Below are positions 13,892 to 63,039 of a stretch of DNA of 64,000 bases, piece after piece. The notes under the pieces were generated by a model. The model saw nothing but the letters and a program-made list of their open reading frames with translations, was not told where the DNA came from and made no database searches. This DNA comes from Vulcanimicrobium alpinum (GTDB lineage: Bacteria; Vulcanimicrobiota; Vulcanimicrobiia; Vulcanimicrobiales; Vulcanimicrobiaceae). Numbering within the stretch: position 1 is the stretch's first letter; each line of letters opens with the position of its first letter. Location of the stretch: positions 1,550,001 to 1,614,000 of the forward strand of contig NZ_AP025523.1 of the NCBI RefSeq assembly GCF_027923555.1, in the 5' to 3' direction. A program made the translations under genes and the position numbers.

Positions 13892-14322
13892 GCGACCGAT
13901 CGAAACGTCCAGTACTTGTTCACGAAGAAGTTCACCACGATCCCGGCGCAGGTCGCGACGAACCACGTTTTGTGGCCGTGCCCCAGATACGGCGCAATGA
14001 CGGCGGACAGCGCAAGACCGACCAGCAGCGCCAGTACCGAAACGGAGAGGAATTGCGCCCCCTCCTTTCCTGCGTGTCCGGTGGAACGGAACGTCCAACT
14101 GCGGTTGAGGAAGTAGTTCGAGACGCCGCCGGCGAGAAACGACGCCGAGTAGATCGCGAAGTACGGCCCCGTCCCGTGCTTATTAAATGCGCCCTGCAAC
14201 ACAGTGAAGATCGCTAAGTTTACGATGAAGCCGGACGCGCCGACGATCCCGAACTTCACGAACTGCCGCACGCCGCGGCGTTCGCGCACGCGCTGGAGCA
14301 GGGTCGTGCGGGCTTCGCTCAT
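13888..14322 (-). CDS. GtrA-family membrane protein
   Basis: A 144-residue GtrA-like protein with four transmembrane helices. The start FVKFGIVGASGFIVNLAIF and the later NYFLNRSWTF and FFVNKYWTF repeats are diagnostic. Family members are thought to flip polyprenyl-phosphate-linked sugars or help glycosyltransferases that use them. It is sandwiched, with 4-nt overlaps on both sides, between two GT-C enzymes. This points to a lipid-linked sugar used for envelope decoration. No GtrB-type GT2 that would load the lipid is adjacent. Confidence 0.92.
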   Translation of the reverse strand: MSEARTTLLQRVRERRGVRQFVKFGIVGASGFIVNLAIFTVLQGAFNKHGTGPYFAIYSASFLAGGVSNYFLNRSWTFRSTGHAGKEGAQFLSVSVLALLVGLALSAVIAPYLGHGHKTWFVATCAGIVVNFFVNKYWTFRSVA

Positions 14323-15878
14323 GCGACCCAATACCAGTCGGCGAAGAGCACCGTGAAGAGCCCCAAGAGCGGAAGCGAAAACGCGACGTACGCGTTGTTG
14401 AACGACTGGCGTCCGCCCCACAGCCCGAACAGCACGAACATCGGGAAGAGCACCAGCGCGAAGCGCGGCATGCTCATCAGGCTCGACGTGCACATCGGGA
14501 CGAGGATCGAGAGCGCCATGTAGACCGTGTACGAGAGGCGCAGGCGGCGGAAGCCGGCGACGAGCACGACGAGCATCAGCAGGGTGAAGCCGAGTTCGAG
14601 GCTTTCGTTCGCGATCGTCTGCGGCGCGTGCGCGTGCGCGATCTTGGTGATCGTCGTGCTGACGCTCGTCCACGGCCACGCGAGGTGGCGGCCCCAGTGC
14701 GTCTGCACGTGCGAGAAGCGCAGCGGATCGCCGCTGATGACCCACAGGTACGCCATGTACGAGAGCAGTCCGAGCGGGACGAGCGCGAGGCCGATGATGG
14801 GTTTGACGATGTCGTCGAGCCAGTAGCGGAAGAACTCGCGGCCGCCCTCGCGCGCGGCGATCGCCCACTCGATGAACAGCGGCGCGGCGAGCAGGATTCC
14901 CTCGGATCGCGTCAGCGCGGCGAAGAACCCGAAGATCCCGGCGGTGAGCCAGCGCCGTTCGCGCACGTAGTAGAACGAGGCGACGCTCAGGAACAGGAAC
15001 AGCGACTCGGCGTAGACCGCGGAGAAGAAGATCGCCGTCGGGAAGATCGAGACGTAGAACGTCGCCCGCTGCGCGACGGCGCGGTTGTACTCGTGCTCGA
15101 TCAGCTTGTAGAGGAAGAGCAGGGCGAAGAAGATCGCCGCATTCGAGACGAGCAGCCCGGCGATCAGGTGCGAGCCGGTGAGCGCGCCGAGCGCGCGGAT
15201 CAGGAGCGGGTAGAGCGGGAAGAACGCGGGCTCCGTCCCGGAGTAGCCTTGCGCCGCGATCCCCAGGTAGTGCTCGGCGTCCCAGCGGCCCCACACCGCG
15301 AGCAGCATGTTCGTCGACGCCGCGAAGTGCGTCCCGGGCCGCTGGCCGATCACCATCGACGCGAGTTCGGCGATCGCGAGCAGGGTGAGGCGCGTGACGA
15401 TGAACGTCGACGCGACGTCGCGGACGGTGCGGTTGAGTTTCGCGGCGATCGCGAGCTTGGCGAGGACGAACGTCCCGAGCGCGATCGCGCTCCACAGCCC
15501 GCCGCCGTTGGCGCCGATCGGCGGGAGCAGCGTACCCCAGAGCAAAGCCAGCGCCGCCCACGAGAGCGCGTCGTACCGCAGGGCGGTCCGTTCCGAGACG
15601 TCGGCGCGCCGCGCGAAGTAGCGCCCGTAGCCGATCCAGCCGGCGTACGCAACCGCAAGGCCGGCGACGAGCGCCGGCGGCAAGGTGACGTCGAGAAACG
15701 CCGGGCCGTGGGGCGCGCGCAGCGCGAGCCCATACCACAGGAAAAAGCCAAGGGAGAGACCGGCGATGCCGACCGCGGCGGCGGCTGGAAAGCCGACCGA
15801 AGCGACGAGCGCCGCGGGTCTCGTGCGGGCGGCGCCCCCGACGACGGCGAGATTCACGAACGCACCGGTTCCGCGCAC
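14319..15878 (-). CDS. PIG-V-like mannosyltransferase family membrane protein
   Basis: A GT-C-type integral membrane protein of up to 519 residues. The diagnostic loop WGRWDAEHYLGIAAQGY followed by PAFFPLYPLLIRALG is characteristic of the PIG-V/mannosyltransferase-2 family, which uses dolichyl/polyprenyl-phosphate mannose. Ten or more hydrophobic helices are seen. Start is ambiguous: GTG at 15878 is chosen because it leaves room for the divergent reductase, while GTG 15857 and the ATG at 15998 are alternatives. It begins the operon with gtrA and the GT39-like gene. Confidence 0.82.
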   Translation of the reverse strand: MRGTGAFVNLAVVGGAARTRPAALVASVGFPAAAAVGIAGLSLGFFLWYGLALRAPHGPAFLDVTLPPALVAGLAVAYAGWIGYGRYFARRADVSERTALRYDALSWAALALLWGTLLPPIGANGGGLWSAIALGTFVLAKLAIAAKLNRTVRDVASTFIVTRLTLLAIAELASMVIGQRPGTHFAASTNMLLAVWGRWDAEHYLGIAAQGYSGTEPAFFPLYPLLIRALGALTGSHLIAGLLVSNAAIFFALLFLYKLIEHEYNRAVAQRATFYVSIFPTAIFFSAVYAESLFLFLSVASFYYVRERRWLTAGIFGFFAALTRSEGILLAAPLFIEWAIAAREGGREFFRYWLDDIVKPIIGLALVPLGLLSYMAYLWVISGDPLRFSHVQTHWGRHLAWPWTSVSTTITKIAHAHAPQTIANESLELGFTLLMLVVLVAGFRRLRLSYTVYMALSILVPMCTSSLMSMPRFALVLFPMFVLFGLWGGRQSFNNAYVAFSLPLLGLFTVLFADWYWVA

Positions 15879-15989
15879 CCCGCCGCGGTCGCCTGCATGA
15901 ATCGCACGCCGGCGGCGGCAAAAGCCGGAACCGTCGGGGACCGCAGGCGTGTCCGAGGGTGCGGACCCCGGAACCAAGGGAGCAGCACC

Positions 15990-17396
15990 ATTCCACATCG
16001 CTTCGATCTGATCGTCATCGGCGCCGGCAGCGGCGGCTACGCCGCCGCACGCACGGCCCGGGACCTCGGCGCGAACGTCGCGCTCGTCGACCGCGGACCG
16101 CTCGGCGGGCTGTGCATCCTGCGCGGCTGCATGCCGTCGAAGACGCTGCTGGCGACCGCCGATCGGCTCCACGAGATCCGCACCGCCGGCGAGCTCGCCG
16201 TGACGGTCGGCGATCCGGCCGTCGATTACGCGAAACTCGCCGCGCGCAAACGCGAGCTCGTCCGGGGGTGGGCCGACTACCGCATCGCCGGGATCGACAC
16301 GTTCCCGCTGTTCTCCGGCGACGCGCGCTTCGAGTCGCCGACGACCCTGCGGGTCGGCCAGGAGATTTTCTACGCGCCGCGCTTCATCATCGCGACCGGC
16401 AGCATCACCGCGCCGGCCGCACTCCCCGGACTGCGCGAAGCCGGCTTCATCGACAGCGACGAAGCGCTCGATCTCACCGCGCCGCCGAAATCGCTGATCG
16501 TGCTCGGCGGCGGCTACGTCGGCAGCGAGCTGGGGCAGTTCTTCCATCGCGTCGGCGTCCCGACCACGATGATCATCCGCGCGCAGCATCTGCTCTCGGG
16601 CGAAGACCACGACATCGGGACCGGTCTGACCGAATACTTCCGCGAGGAAGGGATCCGCATCGAGACCGGTGCACGCGTCGAGCGCGTGACGGTGCGCGAC
16701 GACGGAATGAAGGTCGTGCACTATCTGCAGGACGGCGAACATCGCTCGGCCGCCGCGCACGAGATCTTTTACGCGCTCGGCCGCGTCCCCAACGTCTGCG
16801 ACATGAACCTCGATGCTGCGGGCGTCGAGCATCACGACATCACCGGGATCCCGGTCGACGAGACGCTGCGCAGCACGAATCCCGATATCTTCGCGGTCGG
16901 CGACGTCACCGGACAGTTTCCGCTCGTGCACGTCGCGATCCAGCAGGGTGAGATCGCGGGACGCAACGCCGCGACCGGCGCGCGCGAACGCGCCGACTAC
17001 CGCCTCACCAAGACGCACACGGTCTTCACCGATCCGCAGGTCGCCGTCGTCGGCGAGACCGAGCGCGAACTCGAGAAGGCGGGGATCCCGTTTCTGCGCG
17101 CGACGTATCCGTTCAACGATCACGGCAAAGCCGTCGCGCTGGGGAAGACGAAGGGCTTCGTGAAGATGCTGGCGTCGCCGGCCGACGGCACGATCCTGGG
17201 CGCGTCGATCCTCGGCCCCGACGCCTCGGATCTGATCGAGCCGCTGATCGTCGCGATGGCCTATCGCGCGACGGTACAGGATTACGCGCGCATCCCGCAT
17301 CTCCACCCGACCCTCGTCGAGATCCTGACCTACCCCGCGGAAGAGATCGCCGAGCAGCTGCACGACGTGCAGACGCTCACCGCCGTTGCCAACTAG
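15990..17396 (+). CDS. Dihydrolipoyl dehydrogenase/mercuric-reductase-like flavin disulfide oxidoreductase
   Basis: A 468-residue class I FAD/NAD(P) disulfide reductase. An FAD-binding GAGSGGYAAA motif lies near the N-terminus. The redox pair sits in GGLCILRGCMPSK (C-x4-C). The NAD site is VLGGGYVGSELGQF, and the C-terminal active-site His-Glu pair is in HLHPTLVE. The region downstream of ATG 15897 is not conserved. AAGGGAG at 15976-15982 sits 7 nt before an ATT at 15990, just ahead of the conserved HRFDLIVIGAG, so ATT is the favoured start. No 2-oxoacid dehydrogenase or mer genes are adjacent, so the substrate is open. Confidence 0.9.
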   Translation: MPHRFDLIVIGAGSGGYAAARTARDLGANVALVDRGPLGGLCILRGCMPSKTLLATADRLHEIRTAGELAVTVGDPAVDYAKLAARKRELVRGWADYRIAGIDTFPLFSGDARFESPTTLRVGQEIFYAPRFIIATGSITAPAALPGLREAGFIDSDEALDLTAPPKSLIVLGGGYVGSELGQFFHRVGVPTTMIIRAQHLLSGEDHDIGTGLTEYFREEGIRIETGARVERVTVRDDGMKVVHYLQDGEHRSAAAHEIFYALGRVPNVCDMNLDAAGVEHHDITGIPVDETLRSTNPDIFAVGDVTGQFPLVHVAIQQGEIAGRNAATGARERADYRLTKTHTVFTDPQVAVVGETERELEKAGIPFLRATYPFNDHGKAVALGKTKGFVKMLASPADGTILGASILGPDASDLIEPLIVAMAYRATVQDYARIPHLHPTLVEILTYPAEEIAEQLHDVQTLTAVAN

Positions 17397-62174: not shown

Positions 62175-62606
62175 GTGTCGGACTCTTCGCGTTCAACGTA
62201 TACCGCTACCGCTCCGTTCCTCACCCTCGCCGGCGCGCGCGCCGTTGTCGACGCGGCGCTCGCCGAATCCGAGCGGATCGGCGTCCCGCAGAACGTCGCG
62301 GTCGTCGACGCCGGCGGAAACCTGCTCGCGTTCGCGCGCGGGGACGGGGCGCGCATCGCCTCGATCTCGATCGCGATCACGAAGGCCGTCTCCGCGGCCA
62401 CGCGCAAGCGCGCAACCGCCGACGAAGGCGGCGGCGATCCGATCGCCACGATTCGCAGCGCGCTGGCCGCCGACCGCGTGACGGGGATCGGCGGCGGGAT
62501 CCCGCTGGTGGTCGACGGTTACGTCGTCGGCGGGGTGGGCGCCTCAAGCGGCGCGATCGATGAGGATACGCAGGTCGCGCTCGCCGGAGCCGCCGCGCTC
62601 GGCTGA
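62175..62606 (+). CDS. GlcG/HbpS-family heme-binding-like protein
   Basis: A 143-residue protein of the GlcG/HbpS (DUF336) family. Signatures: LTLAGARAVVDAALAESER, VAVVDAGGNLLAFARGDGA and GIGGGIPLVVDGYVVGGVG with a closing DEDTQVALAGAAAL. HbpS binds haem and senses redox state in Streptomyces, and GlcG's role in glycolate operons is unclear. GTG 62175 gives a conventional length. No glycolate oxidase or sensor kinase is adjacent. Confidence 0.9.
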   Translation: MSDSSRSTYTATAPFLTLAGARAVVDAALAESERIGVPQNVAVVDAGGNLLAFARGDGARIASISIAITKAVSAATRKRATADEGGGDPIATIRSALAADRVTGIGGGIPLVVDGYVVGGVGASSGAIDEDTQVALAGAAALG

Positions 62607-62628
62607 CGGCCGCCGGCGGCATTTCGTC

Positions 62629-63039
62629 CTACGGGCGATACGTGCCGAACGACCACCAGTAGTCTTCGCAGTCGTACGCCGCGTATTCGCGCGAGCCGTA
62701 GTTGTCGCGCGGTTCGATCGCGATGCGCGCGCCGGCGGCGCGGGCGCGCGCGCAGTGCGCATCGGGATCGGCGACGTAGACGTAGATCGATCCGGTGATC
62801 CCGCCGAGGGCGCGCGGCGTGCGTGCCGGGTAGTCGCCGCCCTCGCGCGCGCTGCCGAGCATCAGCACGGCCCCGTTGAGGGTGAGCTGGGCATGGGCGA
62901 CCCCGCCGTCGGGGGTGTCATAAACGAGCTGCGTTTCGAAGCCGAAGGCCTCGCACAGCCAGCGGATCGCGGCGCGGGCGTCGGCGTAGCGCTGCGCCGG
63001 ATACAGGACCTGTGTCGTGGAGATGACCGGTTGGCTCAT
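62629..63039 (-). CDS. VOC-family protein (PhnB/bleomycin-resistance-like)
   Basis: A 136-residue VOC protein. The N-terminal QVLYPAQRYADARAAIRWLC helix-strand, AQLTLNGAVLMLGSAREGG and a C-terminal REYAAYDCEDYWWSFGTY pattern place it in the PhnB-like subgroup. Biochemical role unknown. ATG at 63039. It lies 9 nt downstream of the AraC-type regulator on the same strand, so the two probably form an operon and the regulator may control it. Confidence 0.88.
   Translation of the reverse strand: MSQPVISTTQVLYPAQRYADARAAIRWLCEAFGFETQLVYDTPDGGVAHAQLTLNGAVLMLGSAREGGDYPARTPRALGGITGSIYVYVADPDAHCARARAAGARIAIEPRDNYGSREYAAYDCEDYWWSFGTYRP

Follow-up and report, generated by a model that had tools for sequence, protein, structure and literature searches.

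A reductase gene in the genome of Vulcanimicrobium alpinum has an ATT codon behind a Shine-Dalgarno sequence and an in-frame ATG further upstream, which raises the question of where its translation begins and, if this is at the ATT, whether the rare start is peculiar to this gene. We took a comparative approach to both parts of the question, using orthologues from the same genus and from more distant relatives. The window analysed here, a stretch of 64,000 nucleotides, covers positions 1,550,001-1,614,000 of the 3,508,363-base single-contig genome. The strain WC8-2 (DSM 115291) is described as a cultured member of its phylum with a gap-free genome of 3.50 Mbp (PMC9758169).

The reductase gene and conservation of its probable start codon

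The Shine-Dalgarno sequence AAGGGAG (15976-15982, plus strand) is followed by the 7 nt spacer CAGCACC (15983-15989) and by ATT (15990-15992), which is in frame with the reductase. These coordinates and the frame agree with a preliminary description of the locus, in which the ATT had been proposed as the start. Read from the ATT, the gene has 468 codons (15990-17396, plus strand, with the stop at 17394-17396) and encodes a flavin-dependent pyridine-nucleotide disulfide reductase similar to MerA and lipoamide dehydrogenase. A domain search found Pyr_redox_2 (PF07992) and the dimerisation domain (PF02852), and the translation contains CILRGC. With both domains and the CxxxxC redox motif, which is a mark of the class I pyridine-nucleotide disulfide oxidoreductases, the protein belongs to that class. 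For all 25 NCBIfam families shown, its score was below the curated cut-off, and it reached neither the cut-off for MerA (365.4 bits vs. 454.45) nor that for lipoamide dehydrogenase (348.9 bits vs. 408.8).

The N-terminus of the reductase was present in eight of 10 relatives from the same genus, giving nine orthologues together with our genome; the other two relatives had only the 3' part of the gene at a contig end (G009) or only a distant paralogue (G003). Codon 1 is ATT in all nine orthologues and codon 2 is CCA or CCG, and GGAG precedes the ATT in every case, at 7 nt in seven genomes and at 8 nt in two. The remaining isoleucine codons of the same nine genes are 227 ATC, 14 ATT, and 1 ATA, and none of the 15 other columns that are isoleucine throughout is mostly ATT. 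Third positions in the rest of the gene are 89% G/C. Across the nine orthologues, A or T occupies 20 of 27 third positions in codons 2-4 vs. 419 of 4110 past codon 10, and A/T-rich third positions are usual near starts.

Outside the genus, a canonical ATG, GTG, or TTG was found within two codons of the ATT column in 21 of 21 loci (L015-L035), a count that covers the matches with a locus and draws on the same family (18 genomes) and the next one (three genomes). One of these loci (L026, genome G014) has GTG-CCG exactly at the position of ATT-CCR in the genus, and some starts in more distant reductase loci lie 3 to 9 codons from the ATT column. As a separate observation, the reading frame of one distant orthologue (L060) is closed by a TAG six codons upstream, with no canonical start in between, and an ATC two codons before the ATT column may be its start.

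Upstream region and alternative starts

The preliminary description regarded the ATG at 15897-15899, in frame and 93 nt upstream of the ATT, as the only canonical in-frame start. It is instead the nearest one upstream; GTG and TTG codons exist from 94 codons upstream, within the divergent gene (14319-15857, minus strand), for which comparison suggests a GTG start at 15857. A GCCTGC box, which all nine orthologues have between the divergent genes, marks the homologous upstream site (15891-15899 in the window, where the box is followed by a triplet that is ATG, CTG, CGG, or CAA among the orthologues). This triplet is an in-frame ATG in our genome only, an out-of-frame ATG in five orthologues, and CTG, CGG, and CAA in the other three. 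The distance from the box to the ATT is 93, 105, 110, 94, 106, 106, 92, 55, and 107 nt in the nine orthologues (110, 94, 106, 106, and 55 nt in those with an out-of-frame ATG), and frame-breaking indels evidently accumulate upstream of the ATT. The preliminary description had held that the upstream ATG, if present in all orthologues, would speak against the ATT; the comparison gave the opposite result, with the in-frame ATG kept in one of nine and the ATT in nine of nine.

Two other readings of the N-terminus need to be weighed against this pattern. The protein could start at the ATG at 15897 with a 31-residue Arg-rich leader, possibly the choice of a standard gene finder, and this ATG is indeed in frame and open in our genome. 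We consider such a start very improbable, given that eight of nine orthologues have, at the corresponding site, either an out-of-frame ATG or another triplet, and that no Shine-Dalgarno sequence is visible before the ATG, as the preliminary description had also noted. Such a start would also be separated from the divergent GTG at 15857 by 39 nt, and the putative promoter (15927-15953) would come downstream of it. The other reading is that canonical starts differ from species to species without being conserved, lying either upstream or at a GTG at codon 7, 9, or 10, and that the ATT is an internal isoleucine codon. Canonical codons do occur by chance upstream in eight of nine orthologues (the nearest at -5 to -31) and as GTG at codon 7, 9, or 10 in five of nine, so an alternative start could be proposed gene by gene. 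However, an internal isoleucine would be expected as ATC (227 of 242), GGAG is held at 7-8 nt in all nine orthologues, and our genome has no canonical codon in codons 2-30. The orthologue L007 (G006) has no in-frame ATG, GTG, or TTG from the ATT back to a stop 87 codons upstream, and its nearest downstream candidate is a TTG at codon 26. Species-specific starts are thus hardly credible as an explanation for the set.

The locus therefore shows a rare codon at the N-termini of nine of nine orthologues, a Shine-Dalgarno sequence conserved at initiation distance with the anti-Shine-Dalgarno sequence present in the genome, and no conserved canonical in-frame alternative, as expected of a conserved near-cognate (AUU-type) start. 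From these sequence comparisons, we conclude with high confidence that the AUU at 15990, with GGAG 7 nt 5' of it, is the start of reductase translation, and the ATT start of the preliminary description is supported by the conservation of both elements. The occurrence of the ATT throughout the genus, and the further rare starts described below, go beyond that description.

Putative promoter, proposed mechanism, and known systems

Promoters of ECF sigma factors have a -35 element GGAAC and a -10 element GTC at a spacing of about 16-17 nt, and we take the motif GGAACC-N16-GKGTC upstream of the reductase to resemble them. In the window, it reads GGAACC-N16-GTGTC (15927-15953, plus strand). It is present in seven of nine orthologues, where GGAACC-N16-G(G/T)GTC begins 63-65 nt before the ATT in six and 91 nt before it in the seventh, and is absent in two (G005, G002). 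No other match occurs in 384 kb of our genome or in 418 kb of G001, and 460 kb of G008 contain one more; since the pattern was derived from the same sequences in which it was counted and about one match per stretch is expected by chance (0.90-0.95 in shuffled sequence), its weight rests on its conserved place. An ECF-type promoter at 15927-15953 is suggestive only. If it is used, the transcript would start near 15960, 3' of the ATG at 15897. A second exact match of the extended pattern lies at G000:C1:737190 in our genome (G000), and no sigma-70 promoter was found in 15780-16060.

A regulatory hairpin 5' of the Shine-Dalgarno sequence, with a seemingly conserved GGGG...CCCC stem, was considered and rejected. 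An alignment fold of seven of the nine orthologues (L013 and L014 left out) gave -4.62 kcal/mol with a positive covariation term, one of 14 pairs was changed on both sides, and the single folds of all nine orthologues differ. Neither the alignment fold of seven nor the nine single folds identified a conserved RNA structure as a further control element, and tRNAs alone reached the gathering score in an Rfam scan of the window.

The 3' end of the 16S rRNA, whose gene was located by Rfam, is GGATCACCTCCTTTCT. It carries CCTCC, a canonical anti-Shine-Dalgarno sequence, which identifies GGAG at 15979-15982 as the core of the pairing. The initiator tRNA has the usual features (a CAT anticodon, C1 facing A72, and a GGG/CCC anticodon stem), and neither the 16S tail nor the initiator tRNA gave a sign of a changed decoding apparatus. 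We propose that a leader, some 30 nt long if the promoter has been read correctly, would carry GGAG 7 nt before the AUU, and that pairing of this GGAG with the normal anti-Shine-Dalgarno sequence would hold the 30S subunit. The initiator fMet-tRNA could then read the near-cognate AUU, with the Shine-Dalgarno pairing making up for the codon. GUG and UUG starts have been reported to have stronger Shine-Dalgarno sequences, in an analysis from which CUG and AUU were left out as too few (Belinky et al., 2017, PMC5622118). Because the AUU is near-cognate, reductase output can be expected to fall below that of an AUG start and, judging from the codon type, to be sensitive to IF3, which rejects such codons; we infer that an infC-like regulation by IF3, at which the preliminary description hinted, may operate here.

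Conserved weak starts combined with strong Shine-Dalgarno sequences have precedents in infC, Streptomyces sigR, and S. aureus ccpN. The AUU start of the reductase is very likely real and its class of mechanism is already known; what is new is the strict conservation of the AUU and the repeated occurrence of rare starts among central genes in this genus. Like the reductase, infC, which encodes IF3 and has an AUU, AUA, or AUC start with IF3 autoregulation, places a rare AUH start behind a Shine-Dalgarno sequence, but the reductase is not a translation factor and a feedback loop of its own is not evident. E. coli pcnB, in work attributed to Binns and Masters in 2002, reportedly has a chromosomal AUU start that limits its translation; it shares the AUU with the reductase but differs in gene and lineage. 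Gene finders such as Prodigal allow ATG, GTG, and TTG alone, and finders limited in this way would misplace the N-termini of rare-start genes. The same point has been made for sigR and infC (PMC5472188).

In that report, Streptomyces sigR is described as a thiol-stress regulator with a GTC start that is repressed by IF3 (PMC5472188). It resembles the reductase in a non-canonical start that most species retain (GTC in 32 of 34, GTT in two), a strong conserved ribosome-binding site, a thiol-redox role, and a start misannotated at an upstream canonical codon. In contrast to the reductase, the codon is GTC rather than ATT, the product is a sigma factor, and the effect of IF3 was tested for sigR whereas for the reductase it would follow from the codon. 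The cvfC1 (AUU) and ccpN (AUA) genes of S. aureus, according to PMC13009471, likewise have conserved non-canonical starts with strong Shine-Dalgarno sequences, conserved among staphylococci for cvfC1 and also in B. subtilis for ccpN. Lineage and genes differ from ours, and the S. aureus starts were mapped by ribosome profiling while that of the reductase comes from sequence. The same source gives about 10% of AUG output for AUU and AUA starts in S. aureus, rising to as much as 30% when ccpN is expressed in rich medium, and describes an AUA start of citZ limited to NCTC 8325-derived strains. An infC with an ATT start has been proposed in Xanthomonas (PMC5559785).

Probable rare start codons elsewhere in the genus

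We compared three genomes of the genus over 384 kb of our genome, 418 kb of G001, and 460 kb of G008, with genes called by a codon-usage model. Both relatives were present for 190 of the 351 called genes, and 12 of these were without N-terminal homology, leaving 178 testable genes. A rare or mixed codon column with a Shine-Dalgarno sequence in all three genomes was found for eight of the 178. Five were kept: the reductase (ATT), pckA (ATT), gmk (CTG), icd (CTG), and livH (CTG), where the last four names are putative and come from recognition of the sequences. The three set aside were at A-coordinates 204710, where the CTG is directly followed by an ATG with a Shine-Dalgarno sequence, and 134027 (CTG/TTG/TTG) and 178942 (ATC/ATG/ATG), where the rare codon occurs in our genome only. 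The gmk and pckA genes have a further GTG column common to all three genomes, 9 and 25 codons past the rare codon, respectively, with no Shine-Dalgarno sequence in any.

To gauge these columns, we counted a start zone from -28 to +12 codons around the alignment anchor and control zones 15-55 and 60-100 codons after it. Among columns with a rare codon in all three genomes, a Shine-Dalgarno sequence was present in all three for six of 113 in the start zone vs. four of 270 (15-55 codons) and seven of 232 (60-100 codons). Columns with ATT in all three numbered zero at 15-55 codons and two in the start zone (the reductase and pckA), both with a Shine-Dalgarno sequence in all three. The ATT cases thus stand out, whereas the CTG cases do not by zone count alone, and for the CTG genes the wider relatives weigh more. 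In a looser test, a canonical codon was exactly shared in 97 genes, shared within three codons in 37 and within eight in 19, and not shared in 25; in most genes of the latter two groups, the start seems to shift between genomes.

The pckA-like gene (G000:C1:1842589-1844193, L226) has its ATT behind AGGAG and no canonical in-frame start back to a stop. All eight genus loci read have the ATT, as does another genus (G017); G006 matched outside these eight, and G002 and G004 had no match. CTG was found in 10 of 10 genus loci read for the gmk-like gene (G000:C1:1705117-1705731, L286), and also in G013, and in nine of nine for the livH-like gene (G000:C1:1766446-1767351, L316), for which G009 and G010 were left out of the search. 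For the icd-like gene (G000:C1:1826842-1828074, L256), CTG was found in eight of 10 genus loci read, with GTG in the same column in G005 and G003, and three other genera (G013, G015, G017) have GTG or ATG there. GGAG precedes all eight CTG copies but only one of the five GTG or ATG copies (G015). An exchange between CTG with GGAG and GTG at the same column is thus seen directly in icd. Apart from these genes, an ABC-transporter ATPase gene (G000:C1, near 1651178-1651963) has ATA after GGAGG in our genome and G001, and GTG one codon later in G008.

In the genus, infC seems to start with ATA: all 10 genomes in which the gene was found have this codon where its N-terminus is expected. The other 22 infC loci read have ATA, ATC, or ATT at the N-terminus, some also with a canonical codon further upstream.

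Since pckA (AUU) and gmk, icd, and livH (CUG) share the arrangement seen at the reductase, it looks like a habit of the lineage and not an oddity of one gene. Belinky et al. (2017, PMC5622118), who compared related genomes in 36 triplets, report one AUG-to-AUU and two AUG-to-CUG switches among 61,358 ancestral AUG starts; against so few, a genus that retained several rare starts would be unusual, although annotation habits bias such counts. We put forward, tentatively and at somewhat less than even probability, that the genus has a relaxed or expanded start set (AUU, CUG, AUA), which selection maintains in about 3% of genes (five of the 178 tested), central metabolism among them, and which strong Shine-Dalgarno sequences stabilise, so that the level of IF3 could tune the set together.

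Within the reading of the AUU as the start of the reductase, it may also be that the codon is merely tolerated and has no regulatory role, a sub-question whose odds are not exclusive of those of that reading. The sharing of rare starts by several unrelated housekeeping genes looks like general tolerance, and the unremarkable RNA structure around the reductase start also favours it. Against it, ATT is one base from ATG and the 21 non-genus loci are all canonical, yet the ATT is kept in nine of nine orthologues, and weak starts tested in other systems lower and tune expression (PMC13009471). Mere tolerance comes, in our estimate, only just short of an even chance.

We also examined a control genus of the same order (g28; two genomes, 160 and 174 kb, 92 genes). 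A rare codon with a Shine-Dalgarno sequence in both genomes, and no canonical column bearing one, was found for one of 92 genes in g28 vs. seven of 178 for G000/G001, six of 178 for G000/G008, and seven of 178 for G001/G008. Under a stricter rule, with no canonical column at all, the counts were one of 92 vs. five of 178 (G000/G001). The differences were not significant (Fisher p = 0.27 for 7/178 and p = 0.67 for 5/178), so an excess of rare starts over relatives is not demonstrated; one of the seven G000/G001 cases (316822, CTG) is doubtful, with an ATG nearby. In the control genus itself, a 91-codon open reading frame (G037:C46, about 62400-62673, minus strand) has ATT after GGAGG, the same is found in G038, and G037 has a GTG 20 codons upstream.
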